NCBI RefSeq assembly: GCF_016278365.1
Contig: NZ_JADQBZ010000002.1
Location: forward strand, 303,507-367,506
Length of the DNA stretch: 64,000 nucleotides
Direction: 5' to 3'
From: Methanolobus sp.
Lineage (GTDB): Archaea; Halobacteriota; Methanosarcinia; Methanosarcinales; Methanosarcinaceae
This document shows, in pieces, positions 8,800 through 17,209 of the stretch (the first letter of the stretch is position 1; each line of letters starts with the position of its first letter). Below the pieces are notes generated by a model, which ran no database searches, was not told where the DNA came from, and was given only the letters and a program-made list of their open reading frames with translations. The position numbers were made by a program, and so were the translations under genes.

Positions 8800-10038
8800 T
8801 TATTCGTACCTCAATGCGTCTACCGGCCTCATCTTCGAGGCATTGTATGCAGGCACCACGCCTGAAATTATGCCTATGAAGACAGCGATGGAAATGCCCA
8901 GAAGCATCAGTTCCGGGGAGAGGGTGGAACCCATGGATGATCTCATCATCGTCAGTCCCAACGACGGTAGCAGGGACGTTAGCCCGAGACTCAGTACGAT
9001 ACCGAGCACTCCACCGACAAATCCCACCAGTGCCGAGTTGACCAAGAATATCATCATGATGTCCCTGTTCCTGGCTCCAATAGCCTTCATAGTACCGATT
9101 TCCCGTGTCTTTTCCATTACCGAAGTGAACATCGTGTTTGCAATACCTACCGAACCTACGATCAGGGAAACACCTGCTATGGCTCCCAGGAAAAGGCTCA
9201 TGGATGACATCATCTCACTGGCAGACTCAGCCATGGATAAGGAGTCGCTTACGCTGAAGTCCCTGTCCTTCTCATTCATGATATGCCTTGATATCATGAG
9301 TTTCTCTTCAACATCTGCGACCACTACCTCGACATTTTCTACATCGTTGACCTGAATAACAATAGAATCGTAGACACCTACCTCTCCATCCTCTATCAGT
9401 TCTACTGCAGCATCTATCGGCATTATCACGGCATTGTCATCCTCACCTGATGCAAGTATTCCTACAACCCTGACGGATTTCCCGTTGATAGTTATGACCC
9501 TGTTAAGGCCTATCTGGGTATCGTACATTTCGTTGGCTATCCTGTAACCAATGACCGCAACGTAATTATCTGCGGGTTCCAGCAGCCTGCCGGACTCAAC
9601 ATCATATGTGATGGTATACTGCCATAGCTGGGGATCGACACCTGTGATGGATAGTTCTGCGGATTCACCCATGTAGTACACATCCTCCTTACCGGATATC
9701 TTGCCGTACATGTAACTTATATTGTCTACAGATTTGAGAGCCCGCATATCCTTATCAGTAATTTCCGCATCATCTGAGGAAGACGAGGAACCTCCACCAC
9801 CGCCGCCCGGGGGTCCCATGGCTGAGAAGGCCCGAGTGTAGCCCGGAGTAACGGTAATAGTCGTCAAATCCATATCAGCAAGGCGGCTTTCCATATCTGC
9901 TGACATGCTGTCACTTATAGACATGATTGTGACGACTGCACCGACCCCGATGACAATGCCTATTATAGTTAGCCAGCTTCTGATCTTGCTGTGCAGCAGG
10001 ATGTTGGTAGCAAGCTTAAGATATGTCCTTCGTCTCAT
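8800..10038 (-). CDS. MacB-like ABC transporter permease
   Basis: 412 residues: N-terminal membrane helix (about 20-45, IRSWLTIIGIVIGVGAVVTIMSI), a long extracytoplasmic MacB periplasmic-core domain, and three C-terminal helices (about 285-405) ending VDALRYE, the FtsX/MacB pattern. It contains an odd low-complexity insertion near residue 70 (GPPGGGGGGSSSSSDD), probably a flexible external linker. With the ATPase at 11.4-12.2 kb it forms a type VII ABC system, which usually moves envelope substrates or transmits mechanical signals rather than importing. Overlaps the preceding gene by ATGA. Confidence 0.88.
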   Translation of the reverse strand: MRRRTYLKLATNILLHSKIRSWLTIIGIVIGVGAVVTIMSISDSMSADMESRLADMDLTTITVTPGYTRAFSAMGPPGGGGGGSSSSSDDAEITDKDMRALKSVDNISYMYGKISGKEDVYYMGESAELSITGVDPQLWQYTITYDVESGRLLEPADNYVAVIGYRIANEMYDTQIGLNRVITINGKSVRVVGILASGEDDNAVIMPIDAAVELIEDGEVGVYDSIVIQVNDVENVEVVVADVEEKLMISRHIMNEKDRDFSVSDSLSMAESASEMMSSMSLFLGAIAGVSLIVGSVGIANTMFTSVMEKTREIGTMKAIGARNRDIMMIFLVNSALVGFVGGVLGIVLSLGLTSLLPSLGLTMMRSSMGSTLSPELMLLGISIAVFIGIISGVVPAYNASKMRPVDALRYE

Positions 10039-11408
10039 TGCCCTTCCTTCAGGATCTTCCTCTTCAGTCCCTTTAAGTGGTTTGATAGTTCCTTACGGAT
10101 ATCCTCATTGGACTGACCTGTTTTCCTCTTCCTGTAGTAGAGAGCTCCACCTGTAAGGACAAACAGTACCAGGCCATACATCAGGTAGCTGTTGTCAGAT
10201 GTCTGCTGGGACGTTCCCCGGGGACCCATTGCTGCAGAGGTGGCACCTGTTGCAGACAGGTCTATAGGAACACTTTTCTCCACAGATAATCGCTGGCCTG
10301 TGGAATCCGTGTATTCTATCAGGACCAGAAGGTTATTCCTTGAACTGAATGACTGCGATTCTGTCGTGTTAGTGGAACTTGCCTGTGCCTGTCCCGGCCT
10401 TTCGCCGGTTGCTGTCGCCTGCATCATGCTGGTGGAGGTTACAGAGAAAGATGTAATAGTGTAGTCCCCTTTCTCAAGGTTTCCAACGATGGTGGAAGTG
10501 CTGCCTGTTGCCTGGAAATTGTCCTGTTCAAGTATGGACACCTTGACAGAATAAGCCTGGTTATTACCTACATTCGCAAGTGACAGAGAAACCTCGCCTG
10601 CACTGCCCTCAGAATAAGTCACATCGAAATCCGTGCCGCCCCCTACAAACATGCCAGCTTTTGTCTTGATAGTGCTTTCATTGGAATCGTAGTCCTGAAA
10701 TGTCAGGGTGATGTCAAGCTGGTACAATCCAGGATCTGCATTCACATCAGCCATAACAGAATAAGCCACAGTTACTGACTCACCCACACCGAGATAACTT
10801 ATGTACTTGGTATTGTCCGAATATACCGGCAGGATCGTACCTGTCGAATCCTCCCATGAGACAGCCATATTCTTGAGAGGAGAAGTACCTGTATTTGTAA
10901 TTATAAGCTCCAGAGGCTCCACAGTGGCAATATCAATACTTGACTTACTGATAGTAACCACCTGTGCATACTCCTTGCCCTGCACATCAACTGCAACCGT
11001 AGTTGTTACAGCTGATTCACTGTCGCTGTCTTTAACGGATATGTCAATATCATAAGTCTTCTTTGCCGCGTCCGCATCTACTTTGAGTTTGAATTTGACT
11101 ACTGTGGCATCATTTTCATCCTGACGGGCTTTCAGATAGGATATGGTCTTTGAAAGTGACTCCCCGGATGCCGGGGAAAAAGGATATTCCGGATTCACTG
11201 CAATGACCACATTGGTAAGATCCTTGTTTCCCACGTTCTGTACAGTCAGTGTAAGTTCTACGACCTCGCCAGGTCTTGCAGGACTCGGGCTCTGGCTCAT
11301 GACATTGATGTCTACTCCACTGGCACTATTAGATATAGCTGCTGACGCCGAACTAACGGACAAGATTAAAAATAATAGTATTATCAAAACTTTTCTCATT
11401 TTCATCAC
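10035..11408 (-). CDS. Exported S-layer-like/CARDB-domain protein, C-terminally anchored
   Basis: 457 residues with a signal peptide ([23 protein letters not shown]), several beta-sandwich repeats of the CARDB/NEW3 kind (PGEVVELTLTVQNVGNKDL, VEPLELIITNTGTSPLKN, GEVSLSLANVGNN), a Ser/Thr/Gln-rich stretch near 345-400, one membrane helix (about 408-425) and a basic cytoplasmic tail. It lies between the ATPase and permease genes with 4-bp overlaps on both sides, so it is very likely an obligatory partner, perhaps the outside adaptor of the ABC system. COG1361-type proteins are common in Methanosarcinaceae; their role is not established. Confidence 0.75.
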   Translation of the reverse strand: MMKMRKVLIILLFLILSVSSASAAISNSASGVDINVMSQSPSPARPGEVVELTLTVQNVGNKDLTNVVIAVNPEYPFSPASGESLSKTISYLKARQDENDATVVKFKLKVDADAAKKTYDIDISVKDSDSESAVTTTVAVDVQGKEYAQVVTISKSSIDIATVEPLELIITNTGTSPLKNMAVSWEDSTGTILPVYSDNTKYISYLGVGESVTVAYSVMADVNADPGLYQLDITLTFQDYDSNESTIKTKAGMFVGGGTDFDVTYSEGSAGEVSLSLANVGNNQAYSVKVSILEQDNFQATGSTSTIVGNLEKGDYTITSFSVTSTSMMQATATGERPGQAQASSTNTTESQSFSSRNNLLVLIEYTDSTGQRLSVEKSVPIDLSATGATSAAMGPRGTSQQTSDNSYLMYGLVLFVLTGGALYYRKRKTGQSNEDIRKELSNHLKGLKRKILKEGQ

Positions 11409-12172
11409 ATTACTTCTCTATCTATCTTTTCTACTTTCTCGACCATGCCATCCCTGATGTGTATCACCCTGTCGGCATATTGCACCGGCTTGAGATCGTG
11501 GGTGACGATGATGATGGTCTTTCCTTCGTTCCTGTGCAGATTGCTCAGGAACTCGAGGATGTAACTGCCAGTCTTACTGTCAAGGTTGCCTGTAGGTTCA
11601 TCTGCAAGGATTACTTGGGGATCGACTGCAAGGGACCTTGCTATTGCGACCCTCTGCCTCTGTCCGCCTGACAGCTGCGAAGGCAGGTTTTTCTTCTTAT
11701 CTGAAAGTCCGACAACTTCCAGCAATTCTCCTGCCCTCTTGCGGGCATAAGAGGAATCAGCCTCCTGGAACTCCAGCGGGAGCATCACGTTCTCTATTGT
11801 ATTCAGCGTGGGAATCAGGTTGAACTGCTGGAAAATGAAACCTATCATCTGGCCTCTTATCTGGGCAAGTTCGGATTCCCCGAGCTTTGAGATGTCTTTG
11901 TTATTCAGTTCCACGATACCCCTGCTGGGAATGTCAAGGCAGCCTATGAGGTTCATCATCGTGCTTTTCCCGCTACCGCTGGGTCCCAGTATCACAACGA
12001 ATTCACCTTTATTTATTGTAAGATTGACCTCTTTAAGAGCATCAAAGGTGATCTCACCCATCTGGTATGTCTTCCAGACATCACGCAGATTCAAGAGAGG
12101 TACACTGTAATCATTCTGTAATGACTGATCATCTGACCGGATAGATTCAATTTTCAAGATCTGTAGCTCCAT
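11405..12172 (-). CDS. ABC transporter ATP-binding protein (MacB/LolD type)
   Basis: 255 residues. Walker [11 protein letters not shown]-loop [13 protein letters not shown], signature [16 protein letters not shown], Walker [13 protein letters not shown] and switch HD (IIVTHDLKP) are all present. [12 protein letters not shown] is typical of the LolD/MacB subfamily, which pairs with FtsX-like permeases such as the one at 8.8-10.0 kb. The N-terminal ~25 residues before [16 protein letters not shown] are extra, and the ATG at 12172 has no strong ribosome-binding site; it overlaps a possible small upstream gene by 26 bp, so translation may be coupled or start later. Confidence 0.92.
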
Positions 12173-12341
12173 CGCTATTACCAGTGAAAACCAGTTCTGC
12201 GCTCCCGGGGGGAGAAATATTCGACAGGCGATCGAGTTGCTCAGGAGTCAGCTTCCGGATAAGAGCCGGGGTCACGTAAGTATCATTGGCGCTAATTGCC
12301 TGAGTACGGAATTGAATGAACTGCTTAAATGTGTCTTTCAT
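12147..12341 (-). CDS. Possible small protein, first gene of the ABC operon
   Basis: 64 codons, start ATG preceded by CAGGAAG at good spacing. The product (MKDTFKQFIQFRTQAISAND, later LTPEQLDRLSNISPPG) is hydrophilic with two amphipathic helices and no signal or membrane segment. I do not recognise a family. It lies between a structured leader and the ATPase gene and overlaps the latter by 26 bp. It could be a real small subunit or regulator, or a leader peptide that controls ATPase translation; it could also be chance. Confidence 0.45.
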   Translation of the reverse strand: MKDTFKQFIQFRTQAISANDTYVTPALIRKLTPEQLDRLSNISPPGSAELVFTGNSDGATDLEN

Positions 12342-12349
12342 GAAATGCT

Positions 12350-12530
12350 TCCTGACTCGCAGGAGGCACCCATCTACATAAAGAGGCCTCCGAACGAGAG
12401 ATTGGTTGTCATATATGGTGGTACGTGGTGGTTGCTAGGTGGCACGCCAGAAGTTGTCATTGGCAACCATGAGTGCCACCTCGCGGGGGTGGGCGATACT
12501 CGTCAGCAGTTATCTTGCTGACAATGCCTG
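12350..12530 (-). promoter_or_regulatory. Structured 5' leader of the ABC operon, with pseudoknot-capable inverted repeats
   Basis: This stretch lies between a predicted start near 12578 and the first reading frame at 12341. It contains: a perfect 7-bp hairpin GTCAGCA-7 nt-TGCTGAC (12502-12522); a 9-bp pair AGGTGGCAC/GTGCCACCT (12437-12445 with 12473-12481) interleaved with a 7-bp pair TGGTTGC/GCAACCA (12429-12435 with 12463-12469), a crossed arrangement that would form an H-type pseudoknot; and a 6-bp pair GGAGGC/GCCTCC nearer the gene. I recognise no known riboswitch class. A regulatory RNA element is an inference. Confidence 0.45.
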
Positions 12531-12600
12531 AATTAGCCAATTTAAATAAAAGCATACTTACAAATAAAAGACAAAATGGAACTATTTTCCATGAATAAAG

Positions 12601-12713
12601 CTTTATAAGGAGATTTTTGGAGATTAAACTCTTTATATGGAGCGCATATACTTATCATAGGCAGATAAAGAAAGATATCCGCCAAAAAGAAGACAATACT
12701 CCTTTATACGGAG
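12601..12713. promoter_or_regulatory. Three copies of CTTTATANGGAG, operator/promoter region
   Basis: Exact 12-mers CTTTATAAGGAG (12601-12612), CTTTATATGGAG (12631-12642) and CTTTATACGGAG (12702-12713) differ only at the eighth base. The last two extend to CTC(C/T)...GGAG dyads. Read on the minus strand each is CTCCNTATAAAG, so the copy at 12601 also contains the best TATA element for the ABC operon. A factor binding these sites would compete with TBP. The flanking gene at 12771 encodes a winged-helix protein and is the first candidate. Confidence 0.5.
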
Positions 12714-12770
12714 TGGAGAAATATTACCAGTTAATTAGAGCCTGATAGAAAGCAGGGTGAAAAATGAAGA

Positions 12771-13727
12771 TCAGCTCTCACCTTCTACAAGAAACAGGAT
12801 GTTACCCCTTCCCTTTTTGAATTTCTGGATCTTTCCTCTTTTTTCGAGGTCAAGGAGCATGAGACTTACTTTGCCTTCAGAGTATCTCAAGCGCTTTCGC
12901 ATGTCTTTTTGTGTGATCCTTCCACCTTGGGACCTGAGGATATCCAGTATTTCCTGCAGGTCTGCAGGGACAGGCTCAAAAGATAGTTCAATGGCCTTTC
13001 CATCTGAAAGATTTAACTCCGGGATGAGGATATGCCCTGGAGCCATATCACTTACCCCATCTTCCTCCTGAGAATATACAATTTGTAGCTGTGTCTCAGG
13101 AATCTCATGATCAGCTTTGATAAGTGGAGCAGTAGGATATTCGGTCTTAACAGGCTCAAAAACATCAGGCTCCAGTAAAAACGGGTCAGCAGTAAGAGAG
13201 TTTGTTACCCTGGTATGAGAAACAGCCGGTGAACGTTCGCTCTTATAGCGCACTTGGTAGAACAGAATCAACAGGACTAAAATAAGTGATAATGATGCCC
13301 CTATTAGAATTCCACTGCTATCTCCAGAAGATAAAACTGCTGTATCCTGGCCGGTATTCTCCGGGCTAAGCACAACAGCATCAAGCCCTGTGTTCGTATA
13401 AGAGGGAAGTAAGAGCATGTCCACGACATAGCTGCCTTCATCGGAAACAGTGATCACCTCTTCCCCATAATGCGTCAATGCATCGTTCTGGTAATATTTT
13501 GCTTTTATCAGGTAGGTGCCGCTTGGAAGGTCAAAAGAGTAAACACCGGATTTTGCCACCATCGACTGTACAGGAGTAGAGTTCACCTCGACCAGTGTAT
13601 TGTCAAGAGGTTCGAACGTACTCCATTCATAAGCAACACCGTGTACTGTGGCAACTCCGGAAGCCATGCAAAGCCCCGGCATTAATAACAATACAGCAAC
13701 GCAGCTTATGTACAATATGAATTTCAT
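12771..13727 (-). CDS. Membrane-anchored winged-helix regulator with external carboxypeptidase-regulatory-like domain
   Basis: 318 residues. A signal peptide (to about 22) is followed by an outside beta-sandwich (about 25-110: VHGVAYEWSTFEPLDNTLVEVNSTPV, GVYSFDLPSGTYLIKAKYY), one membrane helix (about 137-157, ILIGASLSLILVLLILFYQV), a ~90-residue linker and a C-terminal winged helix (about 255-315, ITQKDMRKRLRYSEGKVSLMLLDLEKRGKI). This matches the archaeal COG2512 type of one-component membrane regulators, which sense outside and bind DNA inside. It follows the exported protein gene by 27 bp and precedes the repeated operator-like sites; both could be its ligand and its target. Confidence 0.75.
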   Translation of the reverse strand: MKFILYISCVAVLLLMPGLCMASGVATVHGVAYEWSTFEPLDNTLVEVNSTPVQSMVAKSGVYSFDLPSGTYLIKAKYYQNDALTHYGEEVITVSDEGSYVVDMLLLPSYTNTGLDAVVLSPENTGQDTAVLSSGDSSGILIGASLSLILVLLILFYQVRYKSERSPAVSHTRVTNSLTADPFLLEPDVFEPVKTEYPTAPLIKADHEIPETQLQIVYSQEEDGVSDMAPGHILIPELNLSDGKAIELSFEPVPADLQEILDILRSQGGRITQKDMRKRLRYSEGKVSLMLLDLEKRGKIQKFKKGRGNILFLVEGES

Positions 13728-14687: not shown

Positions 14688-14862
14688 TTAAAATCACATC
14701 TTACCATGTTAATCATTTTTTACTTCCTGTAGTCCATTACCAGGTCGAAAGTTCATGTGCTTTATGAAAGTCTCTGTTGAATATAAACATACTTAATAGT
14801 ATAGCAAAAATGGGATTGCAATTGCACGATACAGAGCCCTACAGAAGGGTTATGGGCGCATC

Positions 14863-14979: not shown

Positions 14980-15492
14980 ATGGCGGGGAAAGAACAAATT
15001 CTGATTGACCGAAAGGTAACTCTCGACGAGATTAATGATTTGATCACACACGAGAGCAATTCAAGAGTGTTGAAAAGGCTCTATTTTGTGAAATTTAGAT
15101 ATTTGGGAGATTCTGTTGAAGAAGCTGCTACTAAAGTTGGAGTAACTAAGAAAACAGGATATTACTGGCAAGAGCATTGGAGTAAAGGCGGCTATGCCGC
15201 CTTAATACCACATTTTGGCGGAGGAAGGAAGTCCAAACTTACTGATGAACAGATGAAAGAATTAAGATTATTGTTAAAAAACAAGGATTACTGGACTACA
15301 AGAGAAGTATGGGATTTGATAAAGGAAAAATATAGCGTAGAATATTCCGAGAAACAAGTAGGAGTTATACTCCGCAATTTTAACATGTATCACTCAAAAC
15401 CTTACCCTTTTGACTACAGAAAACCTGAGAATGCTGAAGAGATCTTAAAAAAAACTAACCGAAGCAATTCCAAAAGATATTGGTCAAGATGA
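14980..15492 (+). CDS. IS630 transposase, N-terminal reading frame
   Basis: 170 codons as a separate frame. It holds the two helix-turn-helix regions of IS630 transposases: SVEEAATKVGVTKKTGYYWQEHWSKGGYAAL (about 46-78) and the second (WTTREVWDLIKEKYSVEYSEKQVGVILRNF, about 106-136) that bind the terminal repeats. Meaningful homology ends at EEILKK, in an A8 run at 15447-15454; the remaining codons (TNRSNSKRYWSR) are out of frame. Continuing after a +1 (or -2) shift would give a 345-residue full transposase, the family's normal length. Confidence 0.8.
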   Translation: MAGKEQILIDRKVTLDEINDLITHESNSRVLKRLYFVKFRYLGDSVEEAATKVGVTKKTGYYWQEHWSKGGYAALIPHFGGGRKSKLTDEQMKELRLLLKNKDYWTTREVWDLIKEKYSVEYSEKQVGVILRNFNMYHSKPYPFDYRKPENAEEILKKTNRSNSKRYWSR

Positions 15493-16018
15493 GCAGTATA
15501 TCATAGGTTTCCTGGATGAATCTTCACCACAAACAAAAGCAAATACGCAACGTTTATGGTCATTTAAAAGACCTGTGATAATAAAAAATACAGACTATAT
15601 CAAAGCAAATGCATTTGCGTTTTATTCAATTAACGGTAACAATCTCATTGATTTTATGGAAAGTTCAAAAACAGAAGATGTGTGTGAATTCCTGGAAAAA
15701 ATTGTAGAGCAAAACCCAGGGAAAAGAATAATTCTTGTTCTGGATAATGCAAGATCACACCATGCAAAGAAAACGATAAGTAAAGCGAGAGATTTAAAAA
15801 TAACACTTGTGTTCCTACCACCTTATTCACCAGATCTGAATCCAGTAGAATTTGTATGGAAAACAATCAAAAGAGAAGTATCAGCCAAATTTATCAGATC
15901 AAAAGAACATTTAAGAAACATCATCGAAAGTGAATTCATGAAAGTGGAGAACTCATTATCGTTTGCAAAAAAATGGATAGAAACATTCAATCCACAAATA
16001 AAAAGTGTCATTTGTTGA
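15449..16018 (+). CDS. IS630 transposase, C-terminal catalytic frame
   Basis: About 189 codons in frame +1 relative to the first part; no start codon is needed if a shift occurs in the A8 run. The three acidic catalytic residues are intact: D in IIGFLDESSPQ, D in IILVLDNARSHHA and E in PPYSPDLNPVEFVWK. The only in-frame ATG near the start (about 15656 or the GTG at 15572) would omit the first catalytic Asp, so a separate protein would be inactive. The element is therefore either expressed by programmed slippage or disabled by one extra A. Confidence 0.8.
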   Translation, partial: KKLTEAIPKDIGQDEQYIIGFLDESSPQTKANTQRLWSFKRPVIIKNTDYIKANAFAFYSINGNNLIDFMESSKTEDVCEFLEKIVEQNPGKRIILVLDNARSHHAKKTISKARDLKITLVFLPPYSPDLNPVEFVWKTIKREVSAKFIRSKEHLRNIIESEFMKVENSLSFAKKWIETFNPQIKSVIC

Positions 16019-16259: not shown

Positions 16260-16411
16260 AAGCGCCTTTTTGATAGATAGATCCTCAAATAATACTCTTT
16301 TGTTAAGTATGCTTATATTTTCGGCTGGTAATTTTGGGAATGCCGTACCAGCAATGAAAGAGAACGGGACTGGATCTGGCAGATATAACTTAAAAGGAGG
16401 AAAAAAGTGAA

Positions 16412-17209
16412 ATGAAACTACACGGAAAGAAAGCACTGGCCTGTCTTTCTCTGATGCTTGTGGTATTAAGTGTAATACCCTCAGGTGCGATCAGCAATGA
16501 GACCGGCGTTCAGAATGCAACAGACATAGCAGACTTTGCAGAAGGCAAATTCAAGGGAAGGGGACCAATGGAAAGGTCAGCTATGGAAATTCCGGAGTTT
16601 GAGACTGAAGAAGAAGAGATAGCATTCTTACAGGAGAAAACTGTTGAATCTATCGAGAAAAGGATCGATATGGCAGAAAAGATGCTCGAGAACATAGATG
16701 GGACAGACAGTAAGAATGTGACTGTAGAATCTCTTGAAGAGGAGATCAGCGAACTTAAGATATTACTCGAAAAGATAAACTCTACCACAACTCTGGAAGA
16801 ACTTAAAGAGCTCATGTCCGAATCCATGAAGATGGGACAGGGAAACATAAGAGGTCAGGGTCATGGAATGGAAATGCCTGAGTTCGAAACAGAAGATGAA
16901 GAGATCGAGTTCGTAAAAGCAAGGACTGAAGAATCAGTGAAAAGGATGATTGAAATATTGGAAAATATTGATGCTGAAAAGACCGACTCTGAGAACATCA
17001 CAAGCGAGGATGTTGAAGCAATACTTGTCCAGCTTGAGGACATCAATTCAAGACTCAATAGCGAAGATCTGACACTGGAAGATCTTCAGGAGATCAAAGA
17101 AAGCATGTCCGCAATAATGGACAGCATCAGGGAAGCATGCCCTTCCCCTGCAAATGAAAGAGGAGCATTCCCGGGACACCGCGGGAACAGGGAGGGAATG
17201 ACAGCGTAA
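16412..17209 (+). CDS. Exported acidic protein with internal duplication
   Basis: 265 residues. Signal peptide MKLHGKKALACLSLMLVVLSVIPSGA, then a very acidic, mostly helical mature protein. Two homologous units start MEIPEFETEEEEIAFLQEKT (about 57) and MEMPEFETEDEEIEFVKART (about 152), each followed by a SVEK-type helix ending MLENID / ILENID. A Gly/Arg tail closes the protein (GHRGNREGMTA). Strong AAAGGAGG before the ATG. Function unknown; the charge pattern suggests a cation-binding or surface-associated role. It sits among other exported proteins of this region. Confidence 0.7.
   Translation: MKLHGKKALACLSLMLVVLSVIPSGAISNETGVQNATDIADFAEGKFKGRGPMERSAMEIPEFETEEEEIAFLQEKTVESIEKRIDMAEKMLENIDGTDSKNVTVESLEEEISELKILLEKINSTTTLEELKELMSESMKMGQGNIRGQGHGMEMPEFETEDEEIEFVKARTEESVKRMIEILENIDAEKTDSENITSEDVEAILVQLEDINSRLNSEDLTLEDLQEIKESMSAIMDSIREACPSPANERGAFPGHRGNREGMTA

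Follow-up and report, generated by a model that had tools for sequence, protein, structure and literature searches.

We found a conserved, structured leader RNA ahead of an ABC transporter operon in the archaeal genus Methanolobus. Comparison among relatives leaves us with little doubt that this leader is real, and it probably regulates in cis. The copy described here lies in a 64,000-nucleotide stretch of DNA from a Methanolobus sp. (the window), where the minus strand encodes the hairpin-bearing leader, flanked by the ABC operon on one side and the gene of a DUF7343 protein on the other. The comparison establishes, at the level of sequence, a promoter, three helices, the transcribed strand, a duplicated module of leader and small ORF, and a family-wide link to the ABC operon. 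The relatives bear out part of the preliminary description, in which a structured leader had been proposed ahead of this operon and its 64-codon frame. That description had recognised no known riboswitch class, and Rfam 15 agrees: at gathering thresholds the window contains two tRNAs only, and six leader loci gave nothing at E <= 0.5. We found no published description of the element in the open-access literature, subscription papers and supplements being outside the search. In all likelihood the leader is an RNA control element that has not been described before.

The operon and its promoter

All genes of the unit are on the minus strand. The leader is followed by the 64-codon small ORF (12147..12341), an ABC transporter ATPase of the LolD/MacB type (11405..12172; PF00005), a secreted NEW3/CARDB-domain protein recognised by Pfam search (10035..11408) and a MacB/FtsX-type permease (8800..10038; PF12704 and PF02687). 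The NCBIfam models LolD and MacB score best for the ATPase, yet under their curated cut-offs. The small ORF belongs to a family restricted to Methanolobus (18 of 112 Methanosarcinaceae genomes); the window's member has no match in Pfam, and 21 members of the family have none in NCBIfam. Towards its end, the window's ORF departs from the reading frame of its relatives, so that it overlaps the ATPase start, whereas other members from the same clade end in DFHW or DFQW; we suspect from this a recent frameshift. On the other side of the leader, in a conserved neighbourhood, lies the gene of a predicted membrane protein with a C-terminal DUF7343 winged helix (12771..13727, minus; PF24034), which is a candidate transcription regulator of the gene cluster.

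The core promoter, a BRE/TATA-like AAGTATGCTTTTATTTAAA (12541..12559, minus), is nearly invariant throughout the genus. About 35 nt ahead of it is an upstream element, AAAGCTTTATT (12594..12604, minus), a candidate activator site. The combined operator-promoter pattern, AAAGCTTYATT-N28-56-AAGTATSYTTWTATT, is present in 40 of the 112 Methanosarcinaceae genomes, and its reversed control gave 0 matches in the same set. Three copies of the core promoter stand in the window's gene cluster, against 0.17 expected in the window. The further AAGTATGYTTWTATT motifs precede the DUF7343 operon (14776-14794, minus) and an acidic secreted helical protein encoded at 16412-17209 (16305-16323, plus). A transposase-like gene, split into two ORFs with HTH and DDE_3 parts (14980-16018, plus), is located between these two divergent promoters. 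The genes that share the promoter look like one regulon, and because the operator-promoter is common to them, the units with a leader are probably regulated. In the window species, CTCCNTATAAAG occurs three times at a spacing of about 55-60 nt upstream of the promoter (12594-12720, minus), possibly as operator repeats.

A study on Methanolobus psychrophilus gives a TATA-to-start distance of 19-22 nt (PMC5378194). With this spacing, the conserved promoter predicts a transcript start at about 12521-12524 in the window. This is the 5′ edge of the first hairpin rather than a site inside or downstream of the element, and the earlier placement of the element in the 5′ UTR therefore agrees with the position deduced from the promoter.

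Three hairpins supported by covariation

Hairpin P1 (12500..12524, minus; 12524-12516 with 12508-12500) lies where the transcript is predicted to begin. P2 (12434..12484, minus) pairs 12480-12473 with 12445-12438 and is closed by 12484-12483/12435-12434. P3 (12356..12398, minus; CTCG..GGAGGC / GCCTCC..CGAG) stands immediately ahead of GGAAG (12348..12352, minus), the purine-rich ribosome-binding site of the small ORF. On direct reading, P3 is followed by this site and not by a terminator-type U run, which does not fit an intrinsic-terminator attenuator. The window's minus-strand leader folds better than its shuffles (z -2.26; 2/200).

The ABC operon and its upstream region were recovered in searches of 27 and of 112 genomes. 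In 16 Methanolobus loci, AAGTATGCTTTTATTTAAA is followed, about 20 nt on, by three hairpins in fixed order and, behind them, a ribosome site with a small ORF. We examined covariation over 36 pairs in a set of 25 Methanolobus leaders that leaves out the clade of the window. In this set, 94.3% of the pair cells hold, compared with 37-47% in controls slid by 1-3 columns. Pairs changed on both sides (15 versus 8.5), double-changed cells (70 versus 27) and the covariation score (0.313 versus 0.215) all exceed the values from shuffles; relatedness of the sequences alone may beat shuffles, but the slid control retains relatedness. Helices 1 and 3 of the set are the covarying counterparts of P1 and P3, with seven pairs of helix 3 changed on both sides, and helix 2, the counterpart of P2, has 99% of its cells paired. 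The covariation in relatives that the preliminary description had put forward as its check was thus found. Folded singly, two of the leaders are far more stable than their shuffles (z -6.4 and -5.3).

The Methanolobus leaders contain 78 G-U cells against 9 C-A cells, which indicates that the RNA is the window's minus strand, on which the operon is encoded. Thermodynamically, folding of the plus strand is slightly more favourable (z -3.6), but these counts, the promoter and the direction of the genes all argue for minus. Unpaired columns contain 4.8% G and 45% C, while stems contain 32% G, so the stretches that join the hairpins look as if they are kept free of pairing. The identity of the bases is also kept in unpaired stretches, namely the P2 loop CCAACCACAUCC and the linker GUACCAACAA.

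The window carries a divergent copy. Its clade comprises five genomes (G000, G006, G002, G017 and G009) whose P1 and P2 loop are altered relative to the rest of the genus; the apical part of P2 has been replaced, and the loop sequence differs from that of other Methanolobus. The genus model gives the window's copy 12.2 bits (E 0.083, a truncated match) and its clade relatives 30.8, 28.6, 25.1 and 18.7 bits. Given the weak score, the window's copy is assigned to the family by its synteny, its promoter, the positions of its helices and these intermediates (18.7-30.8 bits). Across leader and ATPase, the window and G006 share 92% DNA identity with identical promoters. All nine pairs of P1 are formed in the five species, and P1 and P2 are 100% paired in every clade member, with too few changes there to reveal covariation. 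Judged by sequence, the window's leader has the operator-promoter, P1, P2, P3 and the co-orientation with the ABC operon that characterise the family, its own model score being weak.

The crossed inverted repeats

The inverted repeats named in the preliminary description all exist: 12429-12435/12463-12469 (7/7), 12502-12508/12516-12522 (7/7), 12362-12367/12386-12391 (6/6) and 12437-12445/12473-12481, the last being the core of a longer arm pair (12434-12445/12473-12484). The first and the last of these cross each other, and had been read as a pseudoknot. When the stretch that carries the repeats was dinucleotide-shuffled, crossed perfect helices of this size appeared in 21 of 2000 cases (~1%), and a perfect helix of at least 9 bp in 37 of 1000, so that the window's repeat pattern, taken alone, is moderately unusual. 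It gains its significance from the comparison with relatives, which backs P1, P2 and P3 and not the crossed pair.

The pseudoknot does not hold up as a conserved feature and is rejected on two grounds, a comparison of duplex energies with those of shuffles, made in five species, and folding. In four clade relatives, the complementarity of loop and tail is no better than in shuffles (p 0.22-0.83); the 7-bp pair of the window itself is borderline, with p 0.019 when the tail is shuffled or 0.14 when the loop is. One arm, TGGTTGC (12463..12469, minus), lies in the P2 loop, where the predicted fold pairs it locally with CAACT, and the first two bases of the other, GCAACCA (12429..12435, minus), close P2. 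Both arms are thus engaged in nested pairing within an extended P2 hairpin in the folds predicted for the window species, and the crossed pair cannot form with the typical Methanolobus P2 loop. It could still form in the window species alone.

Copies and distribution

At E <= 0.01, 17 of 27 Methanolobus genomes match the model, mostly at two places, and most of the closely matching genomes have two copies, each normally ahead of a paralogous small ORF. The second promoter and leader lie about 2.8 kb further upstream and head an operon that encodes a secreted protein and a DUF7343 protein, and the ORFs behind the two Methanolobus leaders are paralogous. In three loci (L016, L060 and L064), the RNA is retained although the small ORF is missing or truncated; to regard the leader merely as the 5′ UTR of the small ORF is therefore insufficient, since the RNA outlasts an intact ORF in some genomes.

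Outside the genus, the Methanosarcina genome G081 has two leader copies (46 and 44 bits) with the same type of promoter, which precede an Lcl_C-domain protein and a flavoprotein operon. The promoter-leader module looks portable, as it stands before different genes. The two G081 copies are near-identical (L106, 7846-8006 and 10484-10644), and each is followed by a conserved 11-codon ORF, MKIMGCTYYSK; the flavoprotein is of the TAT type. Methanomethylovorans, Methanococcoides and other Methanosarcinaceae have weak matches where synteny would place the leader, and no member outside this family was found among 186 genomes of the order. The Methanosarcina-type leaders could be aligned, but the alignment is too gapped for a single consensus structure. 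In Methanosarcina and Methanococcoides the leader has diverged too far for the comparison to yield a single shared secondary structure.

Competing helices

In all five species of the window clade, the small ORF has a ribosome site complementary to the 3′ strand of P3, so that the two can pair (p 0.003-0.027, values that are not independent as the species are close relatives). This pairing and P3 exclude each other. It is not above chance in other Methanolobus; masking of the ribosome site by the P3 arm is thus confined to the window clade and is rejected as a general mechanism. The 13 Methanosarcina-type leaders have a 5′ arm, TGACTGC, with a distal partner at p < 0.05 in 12 of them and a proximal partner at p < 0.1 in nine. 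Since exclusive helices occur in several genera and differ by genus, competing helices appear to be a recurrent theme and not a fixed one. Direct reading of a Methanococcoides leader (L218), upstream of the ATPase, shows a 16-nt long-range complementarity, CTCCCTCTCAAGGTGG/CCACCTTGAGAGGGAG; its formation would come at the expense of P1 and would hide a purine-rich stretch.

Possible mode of action

We lean towards a reading in which the leader acts on translation or stability through a factor. The element would be a cis-regulatory 5′ leader of Methanosarcinaceae, transcribed from the minus strand from a conserved operator-promoter, with three hairpins linked by unpaired, G-poor, C/A-rich stretches. 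It may act after initiation, affecting either how the small ORF and the exporter are translated or how stable the mRNA is, with a trans-acting factor, either an RNA-binding protein or a G/U-rich small RNA, reading the C/A-rich stretches. In the window clade, the 3′ strand of P3 would exchange its own partner for the ribosome site and thereby shut translation. The signal may come from envelope stress or export, as the exporter, secreted proteins and the predicted membrane-anchored winged-helix protein are nearby.

Alternatively, the hairpins and the G-poor unstructured stretch might simply guard the 5′ end and hold the ribosome site open, without regulation. The stability of the hairpins and the position of P1 at the predicted 5′ end suit such a constitutive stabilising leader. 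Long 5′ UTRs are also common in M. psychrophilus, where the authors link them to transcript stability and cold and predict that the Hsp20 leader buries its own ribosome site (PMC5378194). The likeness extends to the genus, a leader of more than 150 nt and ribosome-site masking; the cases in that study differ in being single genes with temperature-dependent start choice, and its main text makes no mention of a conserved RNA family, ABC genes or transporters. We consider purely constitutive stabilisation unlikely, as it would account neither for the kept identity of the unpaired bases in the P2 loop and linker nor for the common operator-promoter, which suggests regulated units.

It is improbable that the leader is a riboswitch that directly senses a small molecule, presumably the exported compound, and switches the exporter. 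An exporter operon, conserved unpaired bases, a covarying structure in the predicted 5′ UTR and exclusive helices (P3 arm against ribosome site in the clade of the window, alternative partners for TGACTGC in many leaders of the Methanosarcina type, a competitor of P1 in Methanococcoides) would all be expected of one, and in these traits the leader resembles riboswitches with translational expression platforms, whose alternative pairings can cover the ribosome site as in the window clade. It differs from them in consisting of simple tandem hairpins instead of a junctional aptamer, and in having neither an Rfam match nor a known ligand. There is no conserved junction or pseudoknot, the crossed pair is not conserved, the loops drift from clade to clade, and in G081 the cassette precedes unrelated genes (Lcl_C-domain protein, flavoprotein). 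We regard it as very improbable that the leader gives rise to, or doubles as, a small RNA acting in trans, with C-rich loops that would bind purine-rich ribosome sites of other mRNAs: the C-rich loops are conserved and the two near-identical G081 copies lie ~190 nt and more from the nearest large ORF, but in all loci examined the leader is upstream of and co-directional with genes, no terminator-like end was seen, and the small ORF is usually ~15-40 nt downstream.

In bacteria, GcvB controls ABC-transporter mRNAs by way of C/A-rich elements close to their ribosome sites (Sharma et al. 2007, as cited in PMC11456600). The leader resembles the targets described there in its unpaired C/A-rich stretches upstream of a ribosome site on an ABC-transporter mRNA; it differs in being archaeal, in having these stretches set between conserved hairpins and in lacking a known partner RNA.

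Protein-binding leaders of the TRAP and ANTAR type contain repeated hairpins or repeated short motifs. The present leader is similar in its serial hairpins and repeated single-stranded ACC motifs, and differs in having no known binding protein.

To our knowledge, few archaeal cis-regulatory RNAs are known beyond widespread classes such as crcB. The leader described here combines clear covariation, duplication within genomes, a link to an exporter operon and a conserved promoter. Because a divergent form exists in Methanosarcina, where genetics is available, control of translation by an archaeal leader RNA, and the factor involved, can be tested directly. More speculatively, and doubtful as it stands, promoter and leader may form a portable cassette that serves as a family-wide archaeal RNA switch: the DUF7343 membrane sensor would set transcription, the fast-evolving leader with its exclusive helices would set the translation of envelope and export genes, and an unknown factor would read the G-poor, C/A-rich stretches. 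If true, this family-wide switch would represent a cis-regulatory RNA of a new class, in methanogens that are open to genetics.
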